A DNA stretch of 64,000 bases from Henricia sp. BOLD:AAB3569. Taxonomy: Eukaryota; Echinodermata; Asteroidea; Spinulosida; Echinasteridae. This document shows positions 30,450 to 64,000 of the stretch, piece after piece. The DNA lies in the NCBI GenBank assembly GCA_037783545.1, contig JBBELK010001090.1:58462-122461 (forward strand), read 5' to 3'. The notes below the pieces were generated by a model. That model saw nothing but the letters and a program-made list of their open reading frames with translations. It did not search any database and was not told the origin of the DNA. The position numbers were made by a program, and so were the translations under genes. Position 1 is the first letter of the stretch; each line of letters starts with the position of its first letter.

Positions 30450-32633
30450 TCAACGGCCGTACAAATGTACACCAGCGCCGCGCAGGGTGTACCAACAGCC
30501 ACGGTTAGGGGAATAACCACGTAGCCGAGCTCCGCTTTCCCTAAACTCTGAAATTTCTCCGTCAATTCCCAGCGAAAATCTGTCAATTTTACATGACAAG
30601 TGCGGAATATATACAGTTTGGAGCATGCAAAATTTGAAGTTGGTTGGAAAAATCCTTAATTTCCAAATTTGCCGGCATTTGGGACACACTTTGACCTAAT
30701 TCCCGTCACAATCTGGAGTGAGTCAACGGCCGTACAAATGTACACCAGCGCCGCGCAGGGTGTACCAACAGCCACGGTTAGGGGAATAACCACGTAGCCG
30801 AGCTCCGCTTTCCCTAAACTCTGAAATTTCTCCGTCATTTCCCAGCGAAAATCTGTCAATTTTGCATGACAAGTGCGGAGTATATACAGTTTGGAGCATG
30901 CAAAATTTGAAGTTGGTTGGACAAATCCTTAATTTCCAAATTTGCCGGCATTTGGGACACACTTTGACCTAATTCCCGTCACAATCTGGGGTGAGTCAAC
31001 GGCCGTACAAATGTACACCAGCGCCGCGCAGGGTGTACCAACAGCCACGGTTAGGGGAATAACCACGTAGCCGAGCTCCGCTTTCCCTAAACTCTGAAAT
31101 TTCTCCGTAATTTCCCAGCGAAAATCTGTCAATTTTGCATGACAAGTGCGGAATATATACAGTTTGGAGCATGCAAAATTTGAAGTTGGTTGGAAAATTC
31201 CTTGATTTCCAAATTTGCCGGCATTTGGGACACACTTTGACCTAATTCCCGTCACAATCTGGGGTGAGTCAACGGCCGTACAAATGTACACCAGCGCCGC
31301 GCAGGGTGTACTAACAGCCACGGTTAGGGGGATAACCACGTAGCCGAGCTCCGCTTTCCCTAAACTCTGAAATTTCTCCGTCATTTCCCAGCGAAAATCT
31401 GTCAATTTTGCATGACAAGTGCGGAATATATACAGTTTGGAGCATGCAAAATTTGAAGTTGGTTGGAAAATCCTTAATTTCCAAATTTGCCGGCATTTGG
31501 GACACACGTTGACCTAATTCCCGTCACAATCTGGGGTGAGTCAACGGCCCGTACAAATGTACACCAGCGCCGCGCAGGGTGTACCAACAGCCACGGTTAG
31601 GGGAATAACCACGTAGCCGAGCTCTGCTTTCCCTAAACTCTGAAATTTCTCCGTCATTTCCCAGCGAAATTCTGTCAATTTTGCATGACAAGTGCGGAAT
31701 ATATACAGTTTGGAGCATGCAAAATTTGAAGTTGGTTGAAAAATTCCTTGATTTCCAATTTGCCGGCATTTGGGACACACTTTGACCTAATTCCCGTCAC
31801 AATCTGGGGGTGAGTCAACGGCCGTACAAATGTACACCAGCGCCGCGCAGGGTGTACCAACAGCCACGGTTAGGGGAATAACCACGTAGCCGAGCTCTGC
31901 TTTCCCTAAACTCTGAAATTTCTCCGTCATTTCCCAGCGAAAATCTGTCAATTTTGCATGACAAGTGCGGAATATATACAGTTTGGAGCATGCAAAATTT
32001 GAAGTTGGTTGGAAAATTCCTTGATTTCCAAATTTGCCGGCATTTGGGACACACTTTGACCTAATTCCCGTCACAATCTGGGGTGAGTCAACGGCCGTAC
32101 AAATGTACACCAGCGCCGCGCAGGGTGTACCAACAGCCACGGTTAGGGGAATAACCACGTAGCCGAGCTCCGCTTTCCCTAAACTCTGAAATTTCTCCGT
32201 AATTTCCCATCGAAAATCTGTCAATTTTGCATGACAAGTGCGGAATATATACAGTTTGGAGCATGCAAAATTTGAAGTTGGTTGGAAAATTCCTTGATTT
32301 CCAAATTTGCCGGCATTTGGGACACACTTTGACCTAATTCCCGTCACAATCTGGGGTGAGTCAACGGCCGTACAAATGTACACCAGCGCCGCGCAGGGTG
32401 TACTAACAGCCACGGTTAGGGGAATAACCACGTAGCCGAGCTCCGCTTTCCCTAAACTCTGAAATTTCTCCGTCATTTCCCAGCGAAAATCTGTCAATTT
32501 TGCATGACAAGTGCGGAATATATACAGTTTGGAGCATGCAAAATTTGAAGTTGGTTGGAAAAATCCTTAATTTCCAAATTTGCCGGCATTTGGGACACAC
32601 TTTGACCTAATTCCCGTCACAATCTGGGGTGAG
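30177..32633 (+). repeat. Nine-unit higher-order repeat, copy 1 (2457 bp)
   Basis: The units are GCATGAAAAG; GTCAATTCCC with TTTTACATG and TGGAGTGAG; GGAGTAT with class 3; GTAATTT; GTACTAAC with class 2 and CACGTTGACC; GAGCTCTGC; GAGCTCTGC; GTAATTT; GTACTAAC with class 2. All nine recur in 32634-35090. This copy has more private damage, especially in units 31269 and 31541, but its net length is unchanged because the small length changes cancel. Confidence 0.92.
31541..31814 (+). repeat. Damaged unit with three single-base length changes
   Basis: In a core where length changes are rare, this unit has an extra C (CGGCCCGTAC), a missing A (TTCCAATTTGCC) and an extra G (TGGGGGTGAG), plus the substitutions GCGAAATTCTG and GGTTGAAAAATTCC. 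Its counterpart at 33999 has none of these. The preceding unit 31269 also lacks one A and has GGGGGATAACC. Local assembly error and local lack of homogenisation are both possible explanations. Confidence 0.8.
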
Positions 32634-37547: not shown

Positions 37548-40004
37548 TCAACGGCCGTACAAATGTACACCAGCGCCGCGCAGGGTGTACCAACAGCCAC
37601 GGTTAGGGGAATAACCACGTAGCCGAGCTCCGCTTTCCCTAAACTCTGAAATTTCTCCGTCATTTCCCAGCGAAAATCTGTCAATTTTGCATGAAAAGTG
37701 CGGAATATATACAGTTTGGAGCATGCAAAATTTGAAGTTGGTTGGAAAAATCCTTAATTTCCACATTTGCCGGCATTTGGGACACACTTTGACCTAATTC
37801 CCGTCACAATCTGGGGTGAGTCAACGGCCGTACAAATGTACACCAGCGCCGCGCAGGGTGTACCAACAGCCACGGTTAGGGGAATAACCACGTAGCCGAG
37901 CTCTGCTTTCCCTAAACTCTGAAATTTCTCCGTCATTTCCCAGCGAAAATCTGTCAATTTTGCATGACAAGTGCGGAATATATACAGTTTGGAGCATGCA
38001 AAATTTGAAGTTGGTTGGAAAATTCCTTGATTTCCAAATTTGCCGGCATTTGGGACACACTTTGACCTAATTCCCGTCACAATCTGGGGTGAGTCAACGG
38101 CCGTACAAATGTACACCAGCGCCGCGCAGGGTGTACCAACAGCCACGGTTAGGGGAATAACCACGTAGCCGAGCTCCGCTTTCCCTAAACTCTGAAATTT
38201 CTCCGTCATTTCCCAGCGAAAATCTGTCAATTTTGCATGACAAGTGCGGAATATATACAGTTTGGAGCATGCAAAATTTGAAGTTGGTTGGAAAAATCCT
38301 TAATTTCCACATTTGCCGGCATTTGGGACACACTTTGACCTAATTCCCGTCACAATCTGGGGTGAGTCAACGGCCGTACAAATGTACACCAGCGCCGCGC
38401 AGGGTGTACCAACAGCCACGGTAAGGGGAATAACCACGTAGCCGAGCTCCGCTTTCCCTAAACTCTGAAATTTCTCCGTCATTTCCCAGCGAAAATCTGT
38501 CAATTTTGCATGACAAGTGCGGAATATATACAGTTTGGAGCATGCAAAATTTGAAGTTGGTTGGAAAAATCCTTAATTTCCAAATTTGCCGGCATTTGGG
38601 ACACACTTTGACCTAATTCCCGTCACAATCTGGGGTGAGTCAACGGCCGTACAAATGTACACCAGCGCCGCGCAGGGTGTACCAACAGCCACGGTTAGGG
38701 GAATAACCACGTAGCCGAGCTCCGCTTTCCCTAAACTCTGAAATTTCTCCGTCATTTCCCAGCGAAAATCTGTCAATTTTGCATGACAAGTGCGGAATAT
38801 ATACAGTTTGGAGCATGCAAAATTTGAAGTTGGTTGGAAAATTCCTTGATTTCCAAATTTGCCGGCATTTGGGACACACTTTGACCTAATTCCCGTCACA
38901 ATCTGGGGCGAGTCAACGGCCGTACAAATGTACACCAGCGCCGCGCAGGGTGTACCAACAGCCACGGTTAGGGGAATAACCACGTAGCCGAGCTCCGCTT
39001 TCCCTAAACTCTGAAATTTCTCCGTCATTTCCCAGCGAAAATCTGTCAATTTTGCATGACAAGTGCGGAATATATACAGTTTGGAGCATGCAAAATTTGA
39101 AGTTGGTTGGAAAAATCCTTAATTTCCAAATTTGCCGGCATTTGGGACACACTTTGACCTAATTCCCGTCACAATCTGGGGTGAGTCAACGGCCGTACAA
39201 ATGTACACCAGCGCCGCGCAGGGTGTACCAACAGCCACGGTTAGGGGAATAACCACGTAGCCGAGCTCCGCTTTCCCTAAACTCTGAAATTTCTCCGTCA
39301 TTTCCCAGCGAAAATCTGTCAATTTTGCATGACAAGTGCGGAATATAAACAGTTTGGAGCATGCAAAATTTGAAGTTGGTTGGACAAATCCTTAATTTCC
39401 AAATTTGCCGGCATTTGGGACACACTTTGACCTAATTCCCGTCACAATCTGGGGTGAGTCAACGGCCGTACAAATGTACACCAGCGCCGCGCAGGGTGTA
39501 CCAACAGCCACGGTTAGGGGAATAACCACGTAGCCGAGCTCCGCTTTCCCTAAACTCTGAAATTTCTCCGTCATTTCCCAGCGAAAATCTGTCAATTTTA
39601 CATGACAAGTGCGGAATATATACAGTTTGGAGCATGCAAAATTTGAAGTTGGTTGGAAAAATCCTTAATTTCCAAATTTGCCGGCATTTGGGACACACTT
39701 TGACCTAATTCCCGTCACAATCTGGAGTGAGTCAACGGCCGTACAAATGTACACCAGCGCCGCGCAGGGTGTACCAACAGCCACGGTTAGGGGAATAACC
39801 ACGTAGCCGAGCTCCGCTTTCCCTAAACTCTGAAATTTCTCCGTCATTTCCCAGCGAAAATCTGTCAATTTTGCATGACAAGTGCGGAGTATATACAGTT
39901 TGGAGCATGCAAAATTTGAAGTTGGTTGGACAAATCCTTAATTTCCAAATTTGCCGGCATTTGGGACACACTTTGACCTAATTCCCGTCACAATCTGGGG
40001 TGAG
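37548..40004 (+). repeat. Partial copies of four-unit modules and linker units
   Basis: Unit 37548 is the chimeric GCATGAAAAG plus CACATTTG type. Units 37821 and 38094 repeat 35091 and 35364. Unit 38367 is class 2 with GGTAAGGGG. Units 38640, 38913 and 39186 repeat 35637-36455. Units 39459 (TTTTACATG, class 2, TGGAGTGAG) and 39732 (GGAGTAT, class 3) resemble the second and third units of the 9-unit repeat, so this stretch is a mosaic of neighbouring modules. Confidence 0.75.
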
Positions 40005-41369
40005 TCAACGGCCGTACAAATGTACACCAGCGCCGCGCAGGGTGTACCAACAGCCACGGTTAGGGGAATAACCACGTAGCCGAGCTCCGCTTTCCCTAAA
40101 CTCTGAAATTTCTCCGTAATTTCCCAGCGAAAATCTGTCAATTTTGCATGACAAGTGCGGAATATATACAGTTTGGAGCATGCAAAATTTGAAGTTGGTT
40201 GGAAAATTCCTTGATTTCCAAATTTGCCGGCATTTGGGACACACTTTGACCTAATTCCCGTCACAATCTGGGGTGAGTCAACGGCCGTACAAATGTACAC
40301 CAGCGCCGCGCAGGGTGTACCAACAGCCACGGTTAGGGGAATAACCACGTAGCCGAGCTCCGCTTTCCCTAAACTCTGAAATTTCTCCATCATTTCCCAG
40401 CGAAAATCTGTCAATTTTGCATGACAAGTGCGGAATATATACAGTTTGGAGCATGCAAAATTTGAAGTTGGTTGGAAAATTCCTTGATTTCCAAATTTGC
40501 CGGCATTTGAGACACACTTTGACCTAATTCCCGTCACAATCTGGGGTGAGTCAACGGCCGTACAAATGTACACCAGCGCCGCGCAGGGTGTACCAACAGC
40601 CACGGTTAGGGGAATAACCACGTAGCCGAGCTCCGCTTTCCCTAAACTCTGAAATTTCTCCGTCATTTCCCAGCGAAAATCTGTCAATTTTGCATGACAA
40701 GTGCGGAATATATACAGTTTGGAGCATGCAAAATTTGAAGTTGGTTGGACAATTCCTTGATTTCCAAATTTGCCGGCATTTGGGACACACTTTGACCTAA
40801 TTCCCGTCACAATCTGGGGCGAGTCAACGGCCGTACAAATGTACACCAGCGCCGCGCAGGGTGTACCAACAGCCACGGTTAGGGGAATAACCACGTAGCC
40901 GAGCTCCGCTTTCCCTAAACTCTGAAATTTCTCCGTCATTTCCCAGCGAAAATCTGTCAATTTTGCATGACAAGTGCGGAATATATACAGTTTGGAGCAT
41001 GCAAAATTTGAAGTTGGTTGGAAAATTCCTTGATTTCCAAATTTGCCGGCATTTGGGACACACTTTGACCTAATTCCCGTCACAATCTGGGGTGAGTCAA
41101 CGGCCGTACAAATGTACACCAGCGCCGCGCAGGGTGTACCAACAGCCACGGTTAGGGGAATAACCACGTAGCCGAGCTCCGCTTTCCCTAAACTCTGAAA
41201 TTTCTCCGTAATTTCCCAGCGAAAATCTGTCAATTTTGCATGACAAGTGCGGAGTATATACAGTTTGGAGCATGCAAAATTTGAAGTTGGTTGGACAAAT
41301 CCTTAATATCCAAATTTGCCGGCATTTGGGACACACTTTGACCTAATTCCCGTCACAATCTGGGGTGAG
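40005..41369 (+). repeat. Five-unit repeat ending in a chimeric unit
   Basis: The units are GTAATTT; CTCCATCATT with CATTTGAGAC; GGACAATTCC with CGAG; plain; and unit 41097, which combines GTAATTT on its left with GGAGTAT and class 3 on its right. The set is followed by 6-unit versions of the same module. The GGACAATTCC form, meaning the class 3 change on a class 1 background, exists only in this module. Confidence 0.85.
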
Positions 41370-43007
41370 TCAACGGCCGTACAAATGTACACCAGCGCCG
41401 CGCAGGGTGTACCAACAGCCACGGTTAGGGGAATAACCACGTAGCCGAGCTCCGCTTTCCCTAAACTCTGAAATTTCTCCGTAATTTCCCAGCGAAAATC
41501 TGTCAATTTTGCATGACAAGTGCGGAATATATACAGTTTGGAGCATGCAAAATTTGAAGTTGGTTGGAAAATTCCTTGATTTCCAAATTTGCCGGCATTT
41601 GGGACACACTTTGACCTAATTCCCGTCACAATCTGGGGTGAGTCAACGGCCGTACAAATGTACACCAGCGCCGCGCAGGGTGTACCAACAGCCACGGTTA
41701 GGGGAATAACCACGTAGCCGAGCTCCGCTTTCCCTAAACTCTGAAATTTCTCCATCATTTCCCAGCGAAAATCTGTCAATTTTGCATGACAAGTGCGGAA
41801 TATATACAGTTTGGAGCATGCAAAATTTGAAGTTGGTTGGAAAATTCCTTGATTTCCAAATTTGCCGGCATTTGAGACACACTTTGACCTAATTCCCGTC
41901 ACAATCTGGGGTGAGTCAACGGCCGTACAAATGTACACCAGCGCCGCGCAGGGTGTACCAACAGCCACGGTTAGGGGAATAACCACGTAGCCGAGCTCCG
42001 CTTTCCCTAAACTCTGAAATTTCTCCGTCATTTCCCAGCGAAAATCTGTCAATTTTGCATGACAAGTGCGGAATATATACAGTTTGGAGCATGCAAAATT
42101 TGAAGTTGGTTGGACAATTCCTTGATTTCCAAATTTGCCGGCATTTGGGACACACTTTGACCTAATTCCCGTCACAATCTGGGGCGAGTCAACGGCCGTA
42201 CAAATGTACACCAGCGTCGCGCAGGGTGTACCAACAGCCACGGTTAGGGGAATAACCACGTAGCCGAGCTCCGCTTTCCCTAAACTCTGAAATTTCTCCG
42301 TCATTTCCCAGCGAAAATCTGTCAATTTTGCATGACAAGTGCGGAATATATACAGTTTGGAGCATGCAAAATTTGAAGTTGGTTGGAAAATTCCTTGATT
42401 TCCAAATTTGCCGGCATTTGGGACACACTTTGACCTAATTCCCGTCACAATCTGGGGTGAGTCAACGGCCGTACAAATGTACACCAGCGCCGCGCAGGGT
42501 GTACCAACAGCCACGGTTAGGGGAATAACCACGTAGCCGAGCTCCGCTTTCCCTAAACTCTGAAATTTCTCCGTAATTTCCCAGCGAAAATCTGTCAATT
42601 TTGCATGACAAGTGCGGAATATATACAGTTTGGAGCATGCAAAATTTGAAGTTGGTTGGAAAATTCCTTGATTTCCAAATTTGCCGGCATTTGGGACACA
42701 CTTTGACCTAATTCCCGTCACAATCTGGGGTGAGTCAACGGCCGTACAAATGTACACCAGCGCCGCGCAGGGTGTACCAACAGCCACGGTTAGGGGAATA
42801 ACCACGTAGCCGAGCTCCGCTTTCCCTAAACTCTGAAATTTCTCCGTCATTTCCCAGCGAAAATCTGTCAATTTTGCATGACAAGTGCGGAATATATACA
42901 GTTTGGAGCATGCAAAATTTGAAGTTGGTTGGAAAATTCCTTGATTTCCAAATTTGCCGGCATTTGGGACACACTTTGACTTAATTCCCGTCACAATCTG
43001 CGCTGCG
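41370..43007 (+). repeat. Six-unit higher-order repeat, copy 1
   Basis: The units are GTAATTT (41370), CTCCATCATT with CATTTGAGAC (41643), GGACAATTCC with CGAG (41916), class 1 with GCGTCGCGC (42189), GTAATTT (42462) and class 1 (42735). The last five correspond to units in 43275-44639. Its end runs into the divergent patch. Confidence 0.85.
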
Positions 43008-43125
43008 GCCGTACAAATGTACACAAGCGCAGCGCGGGGTGTCCCAACAGCCACGGTTAGAAGAATAACCACGTAGCCGAGCTGCGCTTTCCCTAAACTC
43101 TGAAATTTCTCCGTCATTTCCCAGC
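42859..43125 (+). repeat. Divergent 267-bp satellite unit with clustered changes
   Basis: Counted from GAAAATCTG to the next GAAAATCTG, this repeat is 267 bases instead of 273. All its differences lie between 42981 and 43084: C to T at 42981, replacement of 11 bases by CGCTG after 43000, and substitutions at 43025, 43031, 43036, 43043, 43061, 43062 and 43084. The bases on either side match the consensus for over 100 bases. No other unit in the window shares any of these changes that I could find. Confidence 0.95.
43000..43035. other. Perfect 8-bp inverted repeat unique to the divergent unit
   Basis: GCGCTGCG (43000-43007) is the exact reverse complement of CGCAGCGC (43028-43035), with a 20-base spacer. 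Neither arm exists in the consensus unit: the left arm comes from the replaced bases and the right arm from the C-to-A change at 43031. This could record a template-switch event or be a rare imported unit; the sequence alone does not decide. Confidence 0.8.
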
Positions 43126-44639
43126 GAAAATCTGTCAATTTTGCATGACAAGTGCGGAATATATACAGTTTGGAGCATGCAAAATTTGAAGTTGGTTGGA
43201 AAATTCCTTGATTTCCAAATTTGCCGGCATTTGGGACACACTTTGACCTAATTCCCGTCACAATCTGGGGTGAGTCAACGGCCGTACAAATGTACACCAG
43301 CGCCGCGCAGGGTGTACCAACAGCCACGGTTAGGGGAATAACCACGTAGCCGAGCTCCGCTTTCCCTAAACTCTGAAATTTCTCCATCATTTCCCAGCGA
43401 AAATCTGTCAATTTTGCATGACAAGTGCGGAATATATACAGTTTGGAGCATGCAAAATTTGAAGTTGGTTGGAAAATTCCTTGATTTCCAAATTTGCCGG
43501 CATTTGAGACACACTTTGACATAATTCCCGTCACAATCTGGGGTGAGTCAACGGCCGTACAAATGTACACCAGCGCCGCGCAGGGTGTACCAACAGCCAC
43601 GGTTAGGGGAATAACCACGTAGCCGAGCTCCGCTTTCCCTAAACTCTGAAATTTCTCCGTCATTTCCCAGCGAAAATCTGTCAATTTTGCATGACAAGTG
43701 CGGAATATATACAGTTTGGAGCATGCAAAATTTGAAGTTGGTTGGACAATTCCTTGATTTCCAAATTTGCCGGCATTTGGGACACACTTTGACCTAATTC
43801 CCGTCACAATCTGGGGCGAGTCAACGGCCGTACAAATGTACACCAGCGCCGCGCAGGGTGTACCAACAGCCACGGTTAGGGGAATAACCACGTAGCCGAG
43901 CTCCGCTTTCCCTAAACTCTGAAATTTCTCCGTCATTTCCCAGCGAAAATCTGTCAATTTTGCATGACAAGTGCGGAATATATACAGTTTGGAGCATGCA
44001 AAATTTGAAGTTGGTTGGAAAATTCCTTGATTTCCAAATTTGCCGGCATTTGGGACACACTTTGACCTAATTCCCGTCACAATCTGGGGTGAGTCAACGG
44101 CCGTACAAATGTACACCAGCGCCGCGCAGGGTGTACCAACAGCCACGGTTAGGGGAATAACCACGTAGCCGAGCTCCGCTTTCCCTAAACTCTGAAATTT
44201 CTCCGTAATTTCCCAGCGAAAATCTGTCAATTTTGCATGACAAGTGCGGAATATATACAGTTTGGAGCATGCAAAATTTGAAGTTGGTTGGAAAATTCCT
44301 TGATTTCCAAATTTGCCGGCATTTGGGACACACTTTGACCTAATTCCCGTCACAATCTGGGGTGAGTCAACGGCCGTACAAATGTACACCAGCGCCGCGC
44401 AGGGTGTACCAACAGCCACGGTTAGGGGAATAACCACGTAGCCGAGCTCCGCTTTCCCTAAACTCTGAAATTTCTCCGTCATTTCCCAGCGAAAATCTGT
44501 CAATTTTGCATGACAAGTGCGGAATATATACAGTTTGGAGCATGCAAAATTTGAAGTTGGTTGGAAAATTCCTTGATTTCCAAATTTGCCGGCATTTGGG
44601 ACACACTTTGACCTAATTCCCGTCACAATCTGGGGTGAG
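43008..44639 (+). repeat. Six-unit higher-order repeat, copy 2, 6 bp short
   Basis: The first unit is the divergent one. The next five (43275, 43548, 43821, 44094, 44367) follow 41643-43007 in order. The 6-base shortfall comes entirely from the divergent patch, which makes the left boundary approximate. All units are class 1, which is why the minus-strand frame stays open through this region. Confidence 0.85.
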
Positions 44640-47600
44640 TCAACGGCCGTACAAATGTACACCAGCGCCGCGCAGGGTGTACCAACAGCCACGGTTAGGG
44701 GAATAACCACGTAGCCGAGCTCCGCTTTCCCTAAACTCTGAAATTTTTCCGTCATTTCCCAGCGAAAATCTGTCAATTTTGCATGACAAGTGCGGAATAT
44801 ATACAGTTTGGATCATGCAAAATTTGAAGTTGGTTGGAAAATTCCTTGATTTCCAAATTTGCCGGCATTTGGGACACACTTTGACCTAATTCCCGTCACA
44901 ATCTGGGGCGAGTCAACGGCCGTACAAATGTACACCAGCGCCGCGCAGGGTGTACCAACAGCCACGGTTAGGGGAATAACCACGTAGCCGAGCTCCGCTT
45001 TCCCTAAACTCTGAAATTTCTCCGTCATTTCCCAGCGAAAATCTGTCAATTTTGCATGACAAGTGCGGAATATATACAGTTTGGAGCATGCAAAATTTGA
45101 AGTTGGTTAGAAAATTCCTTGATTTCCAAATTTGCCGGCATTTGGGACACACTTTGACCTAATTCCCGTCACAATCTGGGGCGAGTCAACGGCCGTACAA
45201 ATGTACACCAGCGCCGCGCAGGGTGTACCAACAGCCACGGTTAGGGGAATAACCACGTAGCCGAGCTCCGCTTTCCCTAAACTCTGAAATTTCTCCGTCA
45301 TTTCCCAGCGAAAATCTGTCAATTTTGCATGACAAGTGCGGAATATATACAGTTTGGAGCATGCAAAATTTGAAGTTGGTTGGAAAAATCCTTAATTTCC
45401 AAATTTGCCGGCATTTGGGACACACTTTGACCTAATTCCCGTCACAATCTGGGGTGAGTCAACGGCCGTACAAATGTACACCAGCGCCGCGCAGGGTGTA
45501 CCAACAGCCACGGTTAGGGGAATAACCACGTAGCCGAGCTCCGCTTTCCCTAAACTCTGAAATTTCTCCGTCATTTCCAAGCGAAAATCTGTCAATTTTG
45601 CATGACAAGTGCGGAATATATACAGTTTGGAGCATGCAAAATTTGAAGTTGGTTGGACAAATCCTTAATTTTCAAATTTGCCGGCATTTGGGACACACTT
45701 TGACCTAATTCCCGTCACAATCTGGGGTGAGTCAACGGCCGTACAAATGTACACCAGCGCCGCGCAGGGTGTACCAACAGCCACGGTTAGGGGAATAACC
45801 ACGTAGCCGAGCTCCGCTTTCCCTAAACTCTGAAATTTCTCCGTCATTTCCCAGCGAAAATCTGTCAATTTTGCATGACAAGTGCGGAATATATACAGTT
45901 TGGAGCATGCAAAATTTGAAGTTGGTTGGAAAATTCCTTGATTTCCAAATTTGCCGGCATTTGAGACACACTTTGACCTAATTCCCGTCACAATCTGGGG
46001 TGAGTCAACGGCCGTACAAATGTACACCAGCGCCGCGCAGGGTGTACCAACAGCCACGGTTAGGGGAATAACCACGTAGCCGAGCTCCGCTTTCCCTAAA
46101 CTCTGAAATTTCTCCGTCATTTCCCAGCGAAAATCTGTCAATTTTGCATGACAAGTGCGGAATATATACAGTTTGGAGCATGCACAATTTGAAGTTGGTT
46201 GGAAAAATCCTTAATTTCCAAATTTGCCGGCATTTGGGACACACTTTGACCTAATTCCCGTCACAATCTGGGGTGAGTCAACGGCCGTACAAATGTACAC
46301 CAGCGCCGCGCAGGGTGTACCAACAGCCACGGTTAGGGGAATAACCACGTAGCCGAGCTCCGCTTTCCCTAAACTCTGAAATTTCTCCGTAATTTCCCAG
46401 CGAAAATCTGTCAATTTTGCATGACAAGTGCGGAATATATACAGTTTGGAGCATGCAAAATTTGAAGTTGGTTGGAAAATTCCTTGATTTCCAAATTTGC
46501 CGGCATTTGGGACACACTTTGACCTAATTCCCGTCACAATCTGGGGTGAGTCAACGGCCGTACAAATGTACACCAGCGCCGCGCAGGGTGTACCAACAGC
46601 CACGGTTAGGGGAATAACCACGTAGCCGAGCTCCGCTTTCCCTAAACTCTGAAATTTCTCCGTCATTTCCCAGCGAAAATCTGTCAATTTTGCATGACAA
46701 GTGCGGAATATATACAGTTTGGAGCATGCAAAATTTGAAGTTGGTTGGAAAAATCCTTAATTTCCAAATTTGCCGGCATTTGGGACACACTTTGACCTAA
46801 TTCCCGTCACAATCTGGGGTGAGTCAACGGCCGTACAAATGTACACCAGCGCCGCGCAGGGTGTACCAACAGCCACGGTTAGGGGAATAACCACGTAGCC
46901 GAGCTCCGCTTTCCCTAAACTCTGAAATTTCTCCGTCATTTCCCAGCGAAAATCTGTCAATTTTGCATGACAAGTGCGGAATATATACAGTTTGGAGCAT
47001 GCAAAATTTGAAGTTGGTTGGAAAAATCCTTAATTTCCAAATTTGCCGGCATTTGGGACACACTTTGACCTAATTCCCGTCACAATCTGGGGTGAGTCAA
47101 CGGCCGTACAAATGTACACCAGCGCCGCGCAGGGTGTACCAACTGCCACGGTTAGGGGAATAACCACGTAGCCGAGCTCCGCTTTCCCTAAACTCTGAAA
47201 TTTCTCCGTCATTTCCCAGCGAAAATCTGTCAATTTTGCATGACAAGTGCGGAATATATACAGTTTGGAGCATGCAAAATTTGAAGTTGGTTGGACAAAT
47301 CCTTAATTTCCAAATTTGCCGGCATTTGGGACACACTTTGACCTAATTCCCGTCACAATCTGGGGTGAGTCAACGGCCGTACAAATGTACACCAGCGCCG
47401 CGCAGGGTGTACCAACAGCCACGGTTAGGGGAATAACCACGTAGCCGAGCTCCGCTTTCCCTAAACTCTGAAATTTCTCCGTCATTTCCCAGCGAAAATC
47501 TGTCAATTTTGCATGACAAGTGCGGAGTATATACAGTTTGGAGCATGCAAAATTTGAAGTTGGTTGGACAAATCCTTAGTTTCCAAATTTGCCGGCATTT

Positions 47601-48188
47601 GGGACACACTTTGACCTAATTCCCGTCACAATCTGGGGTGAGTCAACGGCCGTACAAATGTACACCAGCGCCGCGCAGGGTGTACCAACAGCCACGGTTA
47701 GGGGAATAACCACGTAGCCGAGCTCCGCTTTCCCTAAACTCTGAAATTTCTCCGTAATTTCACAGCGAAAATCTGTCAATTTTGCATGACAAGTGCGGAA
47801 TATATACAGTTTGGAGCATGCAAAATTTGAAGTTGCTTGGAAAATTCCTTGATTTCCAAATTTGCCGGCATTTGGGACACACTTTGACCTAATTCCCGTC
47901 ACAATCTGGGGTGAGTCAACGGCCGTACAAATGTACACCAGCGCCGCGCAGGGTGTACCAACAGCCACGGTTAGGGGAATAACCACGTAGCCGAGCTCCG
48001 CTTTCCCTAAACTCTGAAATTTCTCCGTCATTTCCCAGCGAAAATCTGTCAATTTTGCATGACAAGTGCGGAATATATACAGTTTGGAGCATGCAAAATT
48101 TGAAGTTGGTTGGAAAATTCCTTGATTTCCAAATTTGCCGGCATTTGAGACACACTTTGACCTAATTCCCGTCACAATCTGGGGTGAG
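44640..48188 (+). repeat. Thirteen-unit block, copy 2, about 25 kb from copy 1
   Basis: This has the same unit order as 19258-22806 except at the fifth position (CATTTGAGAC at 45732 instead of class 3) and the twelfth (a GTAATTTCACAGCG unit at 47643). Smaller differences include GTAATTTCCCAGCG rather than CCCGGCG at 46278 and loss of GCCGTGCAG at 47097. Its length is exactly 3549 bases. The 21.8 kb between the two copies is filled with quite different higher-order repeats. Confidence 0.8.
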
Positions 48189-53102: not shown

Positions 53103-54195
53103 TCAACGGCCGTACAAATGTACACCAGCGCCGCGCAGGGTGTACCAACAGCCACGGTTAGGGGATTAACCACGTAGCCGAGCTCCGCTTTCCCTAAACT
53201 CTGAAATTTCTCAATCATTTCCCAGCGAAAATCTGTCAATTTTGCATGACAAGTGCGGAATATATACAGTTTGGAGCATGCAACATTTGAAGTTGGTTGG
53301 AAAATTCCTTGATTTCCAAATTTGCCGGCATTTGGGACACACTTTGACCTAATTCCCGTCACAATCTGGGGTGAGTCAACGGCCGTTCAAATGTACACCA
53401 GCGACGCGCAGGGTGTACCAACAGCCACGGTTAGGGGAATAACCACGTAGCCGAGCTCCGCTTTTCCTAAACTCTGAAATTTCTCCGTCATTTCCCAGCG
53501 AAAATCTGTCAATTTTGCATGACAAGTGCGGAATATATACAGTTTGGAGCATGCAAAATTTGAAGTTGGTTGGAAAAATCCTTACTTTCCAAATTTGCCG
53601 GCATTTGGGACACACTTTGACCTAATTCCCGTCACAATCTGGGGCGAGTCCAACGGCCGTACAAATGTACACCAGCGCCGCGCAGGGTGTACCAACAGCC
53701 ACGGTTAGGGGAATAACCACGTAGCCGAGCTCCGCTTTCCCTAAACTCTGAAATTTCTCCGTCATTTCCGAGCGAAAATCTGTCAATTTTGCATGACAAG
53801 TGCGGAATATATACAGTTTGGAGCATGCAAAATTTGAAGTTGGTTGGAAAAATCCTTAATTTCCAAATTTGCCGGCATTTGGGACACACTTTGACCTAAT
53901 TCCCGTCACAATCTGGGGTGAGTCAACGGCCGTACAAATGTACACCAGCGCCGCGCAGGGTGTACCAACAGCCACGGTTAGGGGAATAACCACGTAGCCG
54001 AGCTCCGCTTTCCCTAAACTCTGAAATTTCTCCGTCATTTCCCAGCGAAAATCTGTCAATTTTGCATGACAAGTGCGGAATATATACAGTTTGGAGCATG
54101 CAAAATTTGAAGTTGGTTGGAAAAATCCTTAATTTCCAAATTTGCCGGCATTTGGGACACACTTTGACCTAATTCCCATCACAATCTGGGGCGAG
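53103..54195 (+). repeat. Four-unit higher-order repeat of the right domain, copy 2
   Basis: Units 53103, 53376, 53650 and 53923 repeat 52011-53102. Private changes are GGGATTAACC, CTTTTCCTAAAC, CCTTACTTTCC and one inserted base in GAGTCCAACGG near 53650, giving 1093 bases. The markers of its first two units return at 60190-60735. Confidence 0.85.
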
Positions 54196-54467
54196 TCAAC
54201 GGCCGTACAAATGTACACCAGCGCTGCGCAGGGTGTACCAACAGCCACGGTTAGGGGAATAACCACGTAGCCGAGCTCCGCTTTCCCTAAACTCTGAAAT
54301 TTCTCCGTCATTTCCCAGCGAAAATCTGTCAATTTTGCATGACAAGTGCGGAATATATACAGTTTGGAGCATGCAAAATTTGAAGTTGGTTGGAAAATTC
54401 CTTGATTTCCAAATTTGCCGCATTTGGGACACACTTTGACCTAATTCCCGTCACAATCTGGGGTGAG

Positions 54468-55557
54468 TCAACGGCCGTACAAATGTACACCAGCGCCGCG
54501 CAGGGTGTACCAACAGCCACGGTTAGGGAAATAACCACGTAGCCGAGCTCCGCTTTCCCTAAACTCTGAAATTTCTCCGTCATTTCCCAGCGAAAATCTG
54601 TCAATTTTGCATGACAAGTGCGGAATATATACAGTTTGGAGCATGCAAAATTTGAAGTTGGTTGGAAAATTCATTGATTTCCAAATTTGCCGGCATTTGG
54701 GACACACTTTGACCTAATTCCCGTCACAATCTGGGGTGAGTCAACGGCCGTACAAATCTACACCAGCGCCGCGCAGGGTGTACCAACAGCCACGGTTAGG
54801 GGAATAACCACGTAGCCGAGCTCCGCTTTCCCTAAACTCTAAATTTCTCCGTCATTTCCCAGCGAAAATCTGTCAATTTTGCATGACAAGTGCGGAATAT
54901 ATACAGTTTGGAGCATGCAAAATTTGAAGTTGGTTGGAAAATTCCTTGATTTCCAATTTGCCGGCATTTGGGACACACTTTGACCTAATTCCCGTCACAA
55001 TCTGGGGTGAGTCAACGGCCGTACAAATATACACCAGCGCCGCGCAGGGTGTACCAACAGCCACGGTTAGGGGAATAACCACGTAGCCGAGCTCCGCTTT
55101 CCCTAAACTCTGAAATTTCTCCGTCATTTCCCAGCGAAAATCTGTCAATTTTGCATGACAAGTGCGGAATATATACAGTTTGGAGCATGCAAAATTTAAA
55201 GTTGGTTGGAAAATTCCTTGATTTCCAAATTTGCCTGCATTTGGGACACACTTTGACCTAATTCCCGTCACAATCTGGGGCGAGTCAACGGCCGTACAAA
55301 TGTACACCAGCGCCGCGCAGGGTGTACCAACAGCCACGGTTAGGGGAATAACCACGTAGCCGAGCTCCGCTTTCCCTAAACTCTGAAATTTCTCCGTCAT
55401 TTCCCAGCGAAAATCTGTCAATTTTGCATGACAAGTGCGGAAAATATACAGTTTGGAGCATGCAAAATTTGAAGTTGGTTGGAAAAATCCTTAATTTCCA
55501 AATTTGCCGGCATTTGGGACACACTTTGACCTAATTCCCGTCACAATCTGGGGTGAG
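54468..55557 (+). repeat. Four-unit module of the right domain, copy 1
   Basis: The order is ATTCATTGATTT (54468), AAATCTACACC (54741), ATTTAAAG with TTGCCTGC and CGAG (55012), and GCGGAAAATATAC with class 2 (55285). The same order returns at 57467-58555, and a version lacking the second unit is at 59102-59917. Two single-base losses are in unit 54741. Confidence 0.8.
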
Positions 55558-55830
55558 TCAACGGCCGTACAAATGTACACCAGCGCCGCGCAGGGTCTAC
55601 CAACAGCCACGGTTAGGGGAATAACCACGTAGCCGAGCTCCGCTTTCCCTAAACTCTGAAATTTCTCCGTCATTTCCCAGCGAAAATCTGTCAATTTTGC
55701 ATGACAAGTGCGGAATATATACAGTTTGGAGCATGCAAAATTTGAAATTGGTTGGAAAATTCCTTGATTTCCAAATTTGCCGGCATTTGGGACACACTTT
55801 GACCTAATTCCCGTCACAATCTGGGGTGAG

Positions 55831-56648
55831 TCAACGGCCGTACAAATGCACACCAGCGACGCGCAGGGTGTACCAACAGCCACGGTTAGGGGAATAACCA
55901 CGTAGCCGAGCTCCGCTTTCCCTAAACTCTGAAATTTCTCCGTCATTTCCCAGCGAAAATCTGTCAATTTTGCATGACAAGTGCGGAATATATACAGTTT
56001 GGAGCATGCAAAATTTGAAGTTGGTTGGAAAAATCCTTAATTTCCAAATTTGCCGGCATTTGGGACACACTTTGACCTAATTCCCGTCACAATCTGGGGC
56101 GAGTCAACGGCCGTACAAATGTACACCAGCGCCGCGCAGGGTGTACCAACAGCCACGGTTAGGGGAATAACCACGTAGCCGAGCTCCGCTTTCCCTAAAC
56201 TCTGAAATTTCTCCGTCATTTCCTAGCGAAAATCTGTCAATTTTGCATGACAAGTGCGGAATATATACAGTTTGGAGCATGCAAAATTTGAAGTTGGTTG
56301 GAAAATTCCTTGATTTCCAAATTTGCCGGCATTTGGGACCCACTTTGACCTAATTCCCGTCACAATCTGGGGTGAGTCAACGGCCGTACAAATGTACACC
56401 AGCGCCGCGCAGGGTGTACCAACAGCCACGGTTAGGGGAATAACCACATAGCCGAGCTCCACTTTCCCTAAACTCTGAAATTTCTCCGTCATTTCCCAGC
56501 GAAAATCTGTCAATTTTGCATGACAAGTGCGGAATATATACAGTTTGGAGCATGCAAAATTTGAAGTTGGTTGAAAATTCCTTGATTTCCAAATTTGCCG
56601 GCATTTGGGACACACTTTGACCTAATTCCCGTCACAATCTGGGGTGAG
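55831..56648 (+). repeat. Trio AGCGACGCG, TTCCTAGCG, CTCCACTTT, first copy
   Basis: Units 55831 (AGCGACGCG, class 2, CGAG), 56104 (TTCCTAGCG, GGGACCCAC) and 56377 (CTCCACTTT, ACCACATAGCC) appear in the order seen again at 60463-61281 and 61555-62368. The last unit has lost one base near 56575. Confidence 0.8.
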
Positions 56649-57466
56649 TCAACGGCCGTACAAATCTACACCAGCGCCGCGCAGGATGTACCAACAGCCA
56701 CGGTTAGGGGAATAACCACGTAGCCGAGCTCCGCTTTCCCTAAACTCTGATATTTCTCCGTCATTTCCCAGCGAAAATCTGTCAATTTTGCATGACAAGT
56801 GCGGAATATATACAGTTTGGAGCATTCAAAATTTGAAGTTGGTTGGAAAAATCCTTAATTTCCAAATTTGCCGGCATTTGGGACACACTTTGACCTAATT
56901 CCCGTCACAATCTGGGGTGAGTCAACGGCCGTACAAATGTACACCAGCGCCGCGCAGGGTGTACCAACAGCCACGGTTAGGGGAATAACCACGTAGCCGA
57001 GCTCCGCTTTCCCTAAACTCTGAAATTTCTCCGTCATTTCCCAGCGAAAATCTGTCAATTTTGCATGACAAGTGCGGAATATATACAGTTTGGAGCATGC
57101 AAAATTTGAAGTTGGTTGGAAAATTCCTTGATTTCCAAATTTGCCGGCATTTGGGACACACTTTGACCTAATTCCCGTCACAATCTGGGGTGAGTCAACG
57201 GCCGTACAAATGTACACCAGCGCCGCGCAGGGTGTACCAACAGCCACGGTTAGGGGAATAACCACGTAGCCGAGCTCCGCTTTCCCTAAACTCTGAAATT
57301 TCTCCGTCATTTCCCAGCGAAAATCTGTCAATTTTGCATGACAAGTGCGGAATATATACAGTTTGGAGCATGCAAAATTTGAAGTTGGTTGGAAAATTCC
57401 TTGATTTCCAAATTTGCCGGCATTTGGGACACACTTTGACCTAATTCCCGTCACAATCTGGGTGAG

Positions 57467-58555
57467 TCAACGGCCGTACAAATGTACACCAGCGCCGCGC
57501 AGGGTGTACCAACAGCCACGGTTAGGGGAATAACCACGTAGCCGAGCTCCGCTTTCCCTAAACTCTAAAATTTCTCCGTCATTTCCCAGCGAAAATCTGT
57601 CAATTTTGCATGACAAGTGCGGAATATATACAGTTTGGAGCATGCAAAATTTGAAGTTGGTTGGAAAATTCATTGATTTCCAATTTGCCGGCATTTGGGA
57701 CACACTTTGACCTAATTCCCGTCACAATCTGGGGTGAGTCAACGGCCGTACAAATCTACACCAGCGCCGCGCAGGGTGTACCAACAGCCACGGTTAGGGG
57801 AATAACCACGTAGCCGAGCTCCGCTTTCCCTAAACTCTGAAATTTCTCCGTCATTTCCCAGCGAAAATCTGTCAATTTTGCATGACAAGTGCGGAATATA
57901 TACAGTTTGGAGCATGCAAAATTTGAAGTTGGTTGGAAAATTCCTTGATTTCCAAATTTGCCGGCATTTGGGACACACTTTGACCTAATTCCCGTCACAA
58001 TCTGGGGTGAGTCAACGGCCGTACAAATGTACACCAGCGCCGCGCAGGGTGTACCAACAGCCACGGTTAGGGGAATAACCACGTAGCCGAGCTCCGCTTT
58101 CCCTAAACTCTGAAATTTCTCCGTCATTTCCCAGCGAAAATCTGTCAATTTTGCATGACAAGTGCGGAATATATACAGTTTGGAGCATGCAAAATTTAAA
58201 GTTGGTTGGAAAATTCCTTGATTTCCAAATTTGCCTGCATTTGGGACACACTTTGACCTAATTCCCGTCACAATCTGGGCGAGTCAACGGCCGTACAAAT
58301 GTACACCAGCGCCGCGCAGGGTGTACCAACAGCCACGGTTAGGGGAATAACCACGTAGCCGAGTTCCGCTTTCCCTAAACTCTGAAATTTCTCCGTCATT
58401 TCCCAGCGAAAATCTGTCAATTTTGCATGACAAGTGCGGAAAATATACAGTTTGGAGCATGCAAAATTTGAAGTTGGTTGGAAAAATCCTTAATTTCCAA
58501 ATTTGCCGGCATTTGGGACACACTTTGACCTAATTCCCGTCACAATCTGGGTGAG
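57467..58555 (+). repeat. Four-unit module of the right domain, copy 2
   Basis: Units 57467, 57739, 58012 and 58284 match 54468-55557 in order, about 11 units later. Unit 57467 also has CTCTAAAATTT, shared with unit 59102. The module is followed by GGTATACC (58556) and CTTTCTCTAAAC (58829) units, a pair that returns at 63188-63732. Confidence 0.8.
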
Positions 58556-59101
58556 TCAACGGCCGTACAAATGTACACCAGCGCCGCGCAGGGTATACCA
58601 ACAGCCACGGTTAGGGGAATAACCACGTAGCCGAGCTCCGCTTTCCCTAAACTCTGAAATTTCTCCGTCATTTCCCAGCGAAAATCTGTCAATTTTGCAT
58701 GACAAGTGCGGAATATATACAGTTTGGAGCATGCAAAATTTGAAGTTGGTTGGAAAATTCCTTGATTTCCAAATTTGCCGGCATTTGGGACACACTTTGA
58801 CCTAATTCCCGTCACAATCTGGGGTGAGTCAACGGCCGTACAAATGTACACCAGCGCCGCGCAGGGTGTACCAACAGCCACGGTTAGGGGAATAACCACG
58901 TAGCCGAGCTCCGCTTTCTCTAAACTCTGAAATTTCTCCGTCATTTCCCAGCGAAAATCTGTCAATTTTGCATGACAAGTGCGGAATATATACAGTTTGG
59001 AGCATGCAAAATTTGAAGTTGGTTGGAAAAATCCTTAATTTCCAAATTTGCCGGCATTTGGGACACACTTTGACCTAATTCCCGTCACAATCTGGGGTGA
59101 G

Positions 59102-59917
59102 TCAACGGCCGTACAAATGTACACCAGCGCCGCGCAGGGTGTACCAACAGCCACGGTTAGGGGAATAACCACGTAGCCGAGCTCCGCTTTCCCTAAACTC
59201 TAAAATTTCTCCGTCATTTCCCAGCGAAAATCTGTCAATTTTGCATGACAAGTGCGGAATATATAGTTTGGAGCATGCAAAATTTGAAGTTGGTTGGAAA
59301 ATTCATTGATTTCCATATTTGCCGGCATTTGGGACACACTTTGACCTAATTCCCGTCACAATCTGGGGTGAGTAAACGGCCGTACAAATGTACACCAGCG
59401 CCGCGCAGGGTGTACCAACAGCCACGGTTAGGGGAATAACCACGTAGCCGAGCTCCGCTTTCCCTAAACTCTGAAATTTCTCCGTCATTTCCCAGCGAAA
59501 ATCTGTCAATTTTGCATGACAAGTGCGGAATATATACAGTTTGGAGCATGCAAATTTAAAGTTGGTTGGAAAATTCCTTGATTTCCAAATTTGCCTGCAT
59601 TTGGGACACACTTTGACCTAATTCCCGTCACAATCTGGGGCGAGTCAACGGCCGTACAAATGTACACCAGCGCCGCGCAGGGTGTACCAACAGCCACGGT
59701 TAGGGGAATAACCACGTAGCCGAGCTCCGCTTTCCCTAAACTCTGAAATTTCTCCGTCATTTCCCAGCGAAAATCTGTCAATTTTGCATGACAAGTGCGG
59801 AAAATATACAGTTTGGAGCATGCAAAATTTGAAGTTGGTTGGAAAAATCCATAATTTCCAAATTTGCCGGCATTTGGGACACACTTTGACCTAATTCCCG
59901 TCACAATCTGGGGTGAG
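59102..59917 (+). repeat. Shortened copy of the module, one unit missing
   Basis: Units 59102 (CTCTAAAATT, ATTCATTGATTT, two bases lost in ATATAGTTTGG), 59373 (ATTTAAAG, TTGCCTGC, CGAG) and 59645 (GCGGAAAATATAC) follow the module, but the AAATCTACACC unit is absent between the first two. A whole-unit loss by unequal exchange explains this most simply. Confidence 0.75.
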
Positions 59918-60189
59918 TCAACGGCCGTACAAATGTACACCAGCGCCGCGCAGGGTATACCAACAGCCACGGTTAGGGGAATAACCACGTAGCCGAGCTC
60001 CGCTTTCCCTAAACTCTGAAATTTCTCCGTCATTTCCCAGCGAAAATCTGTCAATTTTGCATGACAAGTGCGGAATATATACAGTTTGGAGCATGCAAAA
60101 TTTGAAATTGGTTGGAAAAATCCTTAATTTCCAATTTGCCGGCATTTGGGACACACTTTGACCTAATTCCCGTCACAATCTGGGGCGAG

Positions 60190-61281
60190 TCAACGGCCGT
60201 ACAAATGTACACCAGCGCCGCGCAGGGTGTACCAACAGCCACGGTTAGGGGAATAACCACGTAGCCGAGCTCCGCTTTCCCTAAACACTGAAATTTCTCC
60301 ATCATTTCCCAGCGAAAATCTGTCAATTTTGCATGACAAGTGCGGAATATATACAGTTTGGAGCATGCAACATTTGAAGTTGGTTGGAAAATTCCTTGAT
60401 TTCCAAATTTGCCGGCATTTGGGACACACTTTGACCTAATTCCCGTCACAATCTGGGGTGAGTCAACGGCCGTACAAATGTACACCAGCGACGCGCAGGG
60501 TGTACCAACAGCCACGGTTAGGGGAATAACCACGTAGCCGAGCTCCGCTTTCCCTAAACTCTGAAATTTCTCCGTCATTTCCCAGCGAAAATCTGTCAAT
60601 TTTGCATGACAAGTGCGGAATATATACAGTTTGGAGCATGCAAAATTTGAAGTTGGTTGGAAAAATCCTTAATTTCCAAATTTGCCGGCATTTGGGACAC
60701 ACTTTGACCTAATTCCCGTCACAATCTGGGGCGAGTCAACGGCCGTACAAATGTACACCAGCGCCGCGCAGGGTGTACCAACAGCCACGGTTAGGGGAAT
60801 AACCACGTAGCCGAGCTCCCGCTTTCCCTAAACTCTGAAATTTCTCCGTCATTTCCTAGCGAAAATCTGTCAATTTTGCATGACAAGTGCGGAATATATA
60901 CAGTTTGGAGCATGCAAAATTTGAAGTTGGTTGGAAAATTCCTTGATTTCCAAATTTGCCGGCATTTGGGACACACTTTGACCTAATTCCCGTCACAATC
61001 TGGGGTGAGTCAACGGCCGTACAAATGTACACCAGCGCCGCGCAGGGTGTACCAACAGCCACGGTTAGGGGAATAACCACGTAGCCGAGCTCCACTTTCC
61101 CTAAACTCTGAAATTTCTCCGTCATTTCCCAGCGAAAATCTGTCAATTTTGCATGACAAGTGCGGAATATATACAGTTTGGAGCATGCAAAATTTGAAGT
61201 TGGTTGAAAAATACCTTGATTTCCAAATTTGCCGGCATTTGGGACACACTTTGACCTAATTCCCGTCACAATCTGGGTGAG
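60190..61281 (+). repeat. Four-unit higher-order repeat near the right end, copy 1
   Basis: The units are CTCCATCATT with GCAACATTT (60190), AGCGACGCG with class 2 and CGAG (60463), TTCCTAGCG (60736, with one inserted C near 60820), and CTCCACTTT with AATACCTTGATTT (61010, one G lost near 61275). The period is 1092 bases. Confidence 0.85.
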
Positions 61282-62368
61282 TCAACGGCCGTACAAATCT
61301 ACACCAGCGCCGCGCAGGGTGTACCAACAGCCACGGTTAGGGGAATAACCACGTAGCCGAGCTTCGCTTTCCCTAAACTCTGAAATTTCTCCATCATTTC
61401 CCAGCGAAAATCTGTCAATTTTGCATGACAAGTGCGGAATATATACAGTTTGGAGCATGCAACATTTGAAGTTGGTTGGAAAATTCCTTGATTTCCAAAT
61501 TTGCCGGCATTTGGGACACACTTTGACCTAATTCCCGTCACAATCTGGGGTGAGTCAACGGCCGTACAAATGTACACCAGCGACGCGCAGGGTGTACCAA
61601 CAGCCACGGTTAGGGGAATAACCACGTAGCCGAGCTCCGCTTTCCCTAAACTCTGAAATTTCTCCGTCATTTCCCAGCGAAAATCTGTCAATTTTGCATG
61701 ACAAGTGCGGAATATATACAGTTTGGAGCATGCAAAATTTGAAGTTGGTTGGAAAAATCCTTAATTTCCAAATTTGCCGGCATTTGGGACACACTTTGAC
61801 CTAATTCCCGTCACAATCTGGGGCGAGTCAACGGCCGTACAAATGTACACCAGCGCCGCGCAGGGTGTACCAACAGCCACGGTTAGGGAATAACCACGTA
61901 GCCGAGCTCCGCTTTCCCTAAACTCTGAATTTCTCCGTCATTTCCTAGCGAAAATCTGTCAATTTGCATGACAAGTGCGGAATATATACAGTTTGGAGCA
62001 TGCAAAATTTGAAGTTGGTTGGAAAATTCCTTGATTTCCAAATTTGCCGGCATTTGGGACACACTTTGACCTAATTCCCGTCACAATCTGGGGTGAGTCA
62101 ACGGCCGTACAAATGTACACCAGCGCCGCGCAGGGTGTACCAACAGCCACGGTTAGGGGAATAACCACGTAGCCGAGCTCCACTTTCCCTAAACTCTGAA
62201 ATTTCTCCGTCATTTCCCAGCGAAAATTTTCAATTTTGCATGACAAGTGCGGAATATATACAGTTTGGAGCATGCAAATTTGAAGTTGGTTGAAAAATAC
62301 CTTGATTTCCAAATTTGCCGGCATTTGGGACACACTTTGACCTAATTCCCGTCACAATCTGGGGTGAG
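61282..62368 (+). repeat. Four-unit higher-order repeat near the right end, copy 2
   Basis: Units 61282, 61555, 61828 and 62098 repeat 60190-61281 in order but five bases shorter, with three losses in unit 61828 and two in unit 62098. A third, partial copy follows at 62369-63187, whose first unit is a blend of AAATCTACACC, CTGATATTT, class 2 and CGAG. Confidence 0.85.
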
Positions 62369-64000
62369 TCAACGGCCGTACAAATCTACACCAGCGCCGC
62401 GCAGGGTGTACCAACAGCCACGGTTAGGGGAATAACCACGTAGCCGAGCTCCGCTTTCCCTAAACTCTGATATTTCTCCGTCATTTCCCAGCGAAAATCT
62501 GTCAATTTTGCATGACAAGTGCGGAATATATACAGTTTGGAGCATGCAAAATTTGAAGTTGGTTGGAAAAATCCTTAATTTCCAAATTTGCCGGCATTTG
62601 GGACACACTTTGACCTAATTCCCGTCACAATCTGGGGCGAGTCAACGGCCGTACAAATGTACACCAGCGCCGCGCAGGGTGTACCAACAGCCACGGTTAG
62701 GGGAATAACCACGTAGCCGAGCTCCGCTTTCCCTAAACTCTGAAATTTCTCCGTCATTTCCTAGCGAAAATCTGTCAATTTTGCATGACAAGTGCGGAAT
62801 ATATACAGTTTGGAGCATGCAAAATTGAAGTTGGTTGGAAAATTCCTTGATTTCCAAATTTGCCGGCATTTGGGACACACTTTGACCTAATTCCCGTCAC
62901 AATCTGGGGTGAGTCAACGGCCGTACAAATGTACACCAGCGCCGCGCAGGGTGTACCAACAGCCACGGTTAGGGGAATAACCACGTAGCCGAGCTCCACT
63001 TTCCCTAAACTCTGAAATTTCTCCGTCATTTCCCAGCGAAAATCTGTCAATTTTGCATGACAAGTGCGGAAAATATACAGTTTGGAGCATGCAAAATTTG
63101 AAGTCTGGTTGGAAAAATCCTTAATTTCCAAATTTGCCGGCATTTGGGACACACTTTGACCTAATTCCCGTCACAATCTGGGGTGAGTCAACGGCCGTAC
63201 AAATGTACACCAGCGCCGCGCAGGGTATACCAACAGCCACGGTTAGGGGAATAACCAAGTAGCCGAGCTCCGCTTTCCCTAAACTCTGAAATTTCTCCGT
63301 CATTTCCCAGCGAAAATCTGTCAATTTTGCATGACAAGTGCGGAATATATACAGTTTGGAGCATGCAAAATTTGAAGTTGGTTGGAAAATTCCTTGATTT
63401 CCAAATTTGCCGGCATTTGGGACACACTTTGACCTAATTCCCGTCACAATCTGGGGTGAGTCAACGGCCGTACAAATGTACACCAGCGCCGCGCAGGGTG
63501 TACCAACAGCCACGGTTAGGGGAATAACCACGTAGCCGAGCTCCGCTTTCTCTAAACTCTGAAATTTCTCCGTCATTTCCCAGCGAAAATCTGTCAATTT
63601 TGCATGACAAGTGCGGAAAATATACAGTTTGGAGCATGCAAAATTGAAGTTGGTTGGAAAAATCCTTAATTTCCAAATTTGCCGGCATTTGGGACACACT
63701 TTGACCTAATTCCCGTCACAATCTGGGGTGAGTCAACGGCCGTACAAATGTACACCAGCGCCGCGCAGGGTATACCAACAGCCACGGTTAGGGGAATAAC
63801 CACGTAGCCGAGCTCCGCTTTCCCTAAACTCTGAAATTTCTCCGTCATTTCCCAGCGAAAATCTGTCAATTGTGCATGACAAGTGCGGAATATATACAGT
63901 TTGGAGCATGCAAAATTTGAAGTTGGTTGGAAAATTCCTTGATTTCCAAATTTTCCGGCATTTGGGACACACTTTGACCTAATTCCGTCACAATCTGGGG
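62369..64000 (+). repeat. Terminal units of the window, partial module copies
   Basis: Unit 62369 carries AAATCTACACC, CTGATATTT, class 2 and CGAG. It is followed by TTCCTAGCG (62642, one base lost), CTCCACTTTCC with GCGGAAAATATAC and one inserted base (62914), GGTATACC (63188), CTTTCTCTAAAC with GCGGAAAATATAC (63461), and GGTATACC with CAATTGTGC and ATTTTCCGGC (63733). The array continues to the last base; no flank is reached. Confidence 0.8.

Follow-up and report, generated by a model that had tools for sequence, protein, structure and literature searches.

A single repeat unit of a homogeneous 273-bp satellite array, at positions 42859 to 43125, carries one sharply bounded divergent patch (42981 to 43084) that is genuinely present in the sequence provided. 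Its origin in one event is well supported, because the changes are dense, their bounds are sharp and they are absent from the matching unit of a neighboring block. With a probability of roughly 0.6, we regard the patch as copied, through a short ectopic conversion or a templated repair event, from a related satellite that differs by about 10% and lies outside the window, by which we mean the whole 64,000-nucleotide stretch that was analyzed; we infer, rather than observe, the donor, the repair pathway and the succession of events.

The array and its repeat units

The entire window (1 to 64000) was resolved by TRF as a single satellite array with a period of 273 and 98% matches, which together with our unit table divides into 235 head-to-tail units on the forward strand, the last of them partial. 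All counts of events and of inverted repeats given here refer to the 234 full units, the partial unit at 63857 to 64000 being excluded. Most full units are 273 bp long (206), and the others measure 272 bp (19), 274 bp (5), 271 bp (3) or, in the patch unit alone, 267 bp. Two adjacent units at 31393 to 31938 each combine one single-base deletion with one single-base insertion, and both therefore stay at 273 bp. The array also contains two main unit types, distinguished by T79A and G85A, which lie six bases apart and are almost always found in the same unit (present in 89 and 90 of 231 units; 11191 to 63856). A76C is found mostly on the T79A/G85A type; it occurs apart from that type, together with T146C, at 40675, 42040 and 43672.

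The satellite has a GC content of about 47%. A search of Rfam with both strands of 42313 to 43671 and E values up to 5 returned zero matches, and six unit pieces of 16 to 20 bases, taken from one strand, were absent from the paper text searched. TcSAT1 of Tanacetum is likewise 273 bp long but was rejected as a counterpart, its reported GC content being 33.7% (PMC6532368). A literature match for a 273-bp satellite was also obtained in Cycloramphus (PMC7806164, as far as its indexed text goes), and PMC12885004 was set aside, the matching text being a genome size that ends in 273.

A dense and sharply bounded cluster of changes

Relative to the 273-bp consensus, the patch comprises ten substitutions (C123T, G143C, G145C, C173A, C179A, A184G, A191C, G209A, G210A and C232G) and one 6-bp deletion of consensus bases 148 to 153. 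The original prediction described the same changes as eight substitutions and an 11-to-5-base replacement; the two descriptions are equivalent, since the replaced stretch holds G143C, G145C and the deletion, and two substitutions with a single 6-bp gap make the simpler alignment. It had placed these changes at exactly the coordinates that we find, and its expectation of over 100 consensus-matching bases on each side understated the flanks, of which the left (42576 to 42980) is identical to the consensus for 405 bases and the right (43085 to 43385) for 301. Every change in the unit is confined to the patch, so that 11 events form one contiguous cluster in 104 bp between identical flanks, as in a conversion tract.

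This concentration is exceptional in the array. The patch unit has the maximum number of events of any full unit (11, against a mean of 2.59; the top counts are 6, 6, 7, 7, 8 and 11). All but one of its 11 events are private, compared with 75 private events in the other 233 full units together (mean 0.32), 181 of which have zero; the Poisson probability of ten private events in a unit is 2.5e-12, or 5.7e-10 after multiplication by 234. No other 104-bp stretch exceeds four private events, or seven events of all kinds. Among the 36 listed indel events, the 6-bp deletion is the only one longer than 2 bp. G143C is the sole patch substitution that recurs in the window, once, in unit 12284, and the full set of changes is found in no other unit of the window.

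The pattern of the changes is close to ordinary divergence between homologs and lacks both the mark of one deamination type and single-base slips. The patch remains in register with the consensus, and its scattered substitutions and one indel, at a density of about 10%, are as would be seen between diverged homologs. The ten substitutions are of seven kinds, and transitions make up 4 of 10, compared with 50 of 111 distinct substitutions elsewhere in the array (Fisher P 1.0). CpG decay was rejected as a source (0 of 10 substitutions in the patch, 12 of 111 elsewhere), as were mutation hot columns, since 5 of the 10 patch columns vary elsewhere compared with 34 of 110 columns (hypergeometric P 0.16). 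One feature that the conversion reading does not explain is that 8 of the 10 substitutions fall at G or C (with two at A and none at T), which compares with 66 of 111 elsewhere.

The patch and the neighboring higher-order blocks

Three higher-order blocks, one of five units and then two of six, follow one another from 40129 to 44763, and their first four unit types come in a common order: G261A, G109A, A76C with T146C, and C263A. Block A (40129 to 41493) has five units, and its fifth belongs to a different type (A34G and others). Block B (41494 to 43125) carries C178T as an additional change in its third unit and ends with a consensus fifth unit followed by the patch unit as its sixth. Block C (43126 to 44763) is an apparent tandem duplicate of B, with a consensus fifth unit and a sixth unit (44491 to 44763) that carries C257T and lacks the patch. 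Apart from the patch, B and C differ by three substitutions (C178T, C123A and C257T) over about 1.6 kb, compared with a change density of about 10% within the patch.

The correspondence of the sixth units of B and C is deduced from the order of unit types and from spacing, the consensus units having no marker of their own. Since the sixth unit of C reads as consensus where B has the patch, the simplest order is that the B/C duplication came first and the patch was gained later, the alternative being its loss from C; the recipient state can thus be seen in a close paralog.

Inverted repeats gained with the patch

The stretch occupied by the patch contains three perfect inverted repeats with arms of 8 to 9 bp, where the same stretch of the consensus has none. 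Two were gained outright: one spans 43000 to 43035, with 8-bp arms (43000 to 43007 and 43028 to 43035) that form a predicted stem, and the other spans 43025 to 43089, with 9-bp arms (43025 to 43033 and 43081 to 43089). The third (42964 to 43047) was completed by A191C and has 9-bp arms at 42964 to 42972, which is unchanged sequence, and at 43039 to 43047. Two of the three have one arm in common. Counting repeats with arms of at least 8 bp in this stretch, 230 of the 234 full units have none, three have one and the patch unit has three. The contrast is smaller over whole units, with four in the patch unit, three in one unit, two in 11, one in 202 and none in 19. The consensus unit itself has one perfect 11-bp inverted repeat, formed by bases 12 to 22 and 51 to 61 (AATTTTGCATG and its complement), which may be the one repeat counted in each of the 202 units.

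The tests of this excess and of folding were all post hoc, having been devised with the sequence already seen. At least three repeats arose by chance with a P of 0.0003 in 3000 simulations that used the same substitution spectrum and a randomly placed 6-bp deletion; P was 0.0007 when real array variants were used and 0.005 when the replacement was held fixed (3000 simulations each). A weighted count gave P 0.0013, and the control with direct repeats showed no significant excess (P 0.15 to 1.0). The length of the longest arm was a weak signal by itself (P 0.049 in 3000 simulations, P 0.039 in 2000). Folded as single-stranded DNA, the patched stretch had a z of -2.23 relative to shuffles, of which 5 of 200 were as good, compared with -0.06 and 90 of 200 for the corresponding stretch of the consensus unit just before it; the folding energy had a P of 0.0075 in 2000 simulations.

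Apart from A191C, local sequence does not clearly predict the derived bases, and in two of the three repeats both arms have to change. The repeats are therefore more indicative of a donor that had an independent history, or of chance, than of a single switch of template nearby. Four of the substitutions (C123T, A184G, G209A and G210A) fall outside all three perfect repeats. Short dyad symmetries are described as common in the centromeres of several organisms in the part of PMC8997354 that was available.

Alternative origins of the patch

Local mutagenesis in one event, whether an error-prone repair tract or template switching guided in place by inverted repeats, would account for the extreme clustering of the changes and for the net gain of inverted repeats, and A191C, which completes a 9-bp repeat with the unchanged bases 42964 to 42972, is the kind of change it would make. 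Switching between short imperfect inverted repeats is described as making their arms match and as producing multinucleotide mutations (PMC8604942, in the sections available). When the reverse complement of the consensus was compared with the ten derived bases, matches ran to 4 to 9 bases and reached at least 8 only over A191C. Their summed length was 56, where the simulations averaged 49.7 (P 0.08), and P was 0.08 for the longest match and 0.24 for the number of matches of at least 8 (5000 simulations with substitutions only, the deletion being excluded). As a template for the inverted repeats of the patch, the local consensus is thus not clearly better than chance. No one segment copied from a nearby reverse complement accounts for the patch, switches producing single changes being possible, and a single local templated error is disfavored because of the two repeats that need changes in both arms. 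The mixed spectrum is, in addition, unlike that of one deamination type, and about 10% substitutions with single-base indels absent is more than would be expected of a translesion polymerase. We therefore judge an origin by local mutagenesis unlikely.

The same mosaic could have been reached from the opposite direction, if an old diverged monomer had its flanks overwritten by homogenization until an island of 104 bp was left. Such a relic would give an identical product, and homogenization within arrays can be imperfect according to a review (PMC8997354, as excerpted). This reading requires that block C lost the relic, given that 44491 to 44763 is consensus across the patch and that B and C are otherwise three substitutions apart. 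Nor is the surrounding sequence rich in private events: with the patch set aside, there are 6 in the bin from 40001 to 48000 and 21 in that from 56001 to 64000. Survival of an old monomer is, in our view, improbable.

We also give little weight to an error in the assembled consensus, such as a poorly covered or wrongly polished stretch. Base-level error is conceivable in this window, as 20 of the 36 indel events lie in 56001 to 64000 and 13 of those 20 are single-base deletions in runs of at least three equal bases. The neighborhood of the patch is clean by comparison, with zero other indels between 31806 and 53650, and the patch is made of substitutions and one 6-bp gap rather than homopolymer slips. 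A misjoined assembly was dismissed, the array resuming in register on both sides.

As a separate observation, the right end of the array (53500 to 63856) is less homogeneous than the middle, and deletions of G142 and A92 recur there, which could reflect either an aging array edge or local base-level error.

Proposed copying from a diverged satellite relative

The original prediction had proposed a single event, either conversion or error-prone repair. The single event holds up; the choice between the two is a matter of interpretation, and we infer that the pattern of changes is better matched by copying from a diverged relative than by error-prone repair. Under the conversion reading, a break or stalled fork in unit 42859 to 43125 would have been repaired with a related satellite repeat from outside the window as the in-register template for 104 bp or more, this template differing by about 10% (ten substitutions and one 6-bp gap). 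The pathway may have been ectopic gene conversion, synthesis-dependent annealing or break-induced replication, and the event probably came after the six-unit block was last duplicated locally.

A point against conversion is that a donor was found neither in the window nor in the viral, prokaryotic, plasmid and phage sets. With the patch masked, exact matches in the window on both strands extended over the changed bases for only 6 to 9 bases, except for two longer matches, one of 21 bases at G143C (also present in unit 12284) and one of 19 bases where the replacement ends on the right. There was no exact sharing of 21 to 40 bases with viral contigs or prokaryote genomes, and blastn at E 1e-5 gave no match in plasmids and phages; the silence of these sets says little, because a eukaryotic-type satellite would not be expected there. 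Sequences about 10% diverged are also poor substrates for recombination where mismatch repair is active, which counts against conversion as well.

The patch is of a known kind, as published work already describes both gene conversion at centromeres and models of templated repair in satellite arrays. The conversion reported for maize centromere cores is alike in being a short non-reciprocal replacement in a repeat-rich region, with noncrossover tracts described as short; it differs in that markers were followed in a population between homologs, whereas here a single sequence is at hand and the inferred donor is about 10% diverged (PMC2834710, from the portions available). The break-induced replication model for satellite arrays shares out-of-register templated repair, and block duplications of the B/C type would fit it, but in its available text the model concerns higher-order structure and copy number rather than a diverged tract of 104 bp (PMC8997354). 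Quasi-palindrome correction, or inverted-repeat template switching, resembles the patch in leaving clustered changes and longer perfect inverted repeats, by criteria of arms of at least 7 bp and spacers up to 70; in the patch, unlike the process outlined there, the local consensus does not clearly predict the derived bases, and four substitutions lie outside the repeats (PMC8604942, as extracted). A literature search combining interlocus conversion, clustered mutations and template switching returned no match.

Implications

At present the patch is one well-bounded example, and the process behind it is likely an ordinary one. We suggest, tentatively and as a possibility on the doubtful side, that the donor belongs to a dyad-rich sister satellite subfamily, which would make the patch a fresh jump between subfamilies across roughly 10% divergence and about 100 bp. 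If so, new variation would have been seeded in a homogeneous array, and short hairpin-forming dyads, of a sort reported for several centromeres, would have been brought along with it. Should the donor be found, the patch would provide a single event, ordered relative to a local duplication, with which to gauge how short and how diverged the conversion tracts of satellites can be, and it would indicate that homogeneous arrays gain variants from other subfamilies as well as by point mutation.
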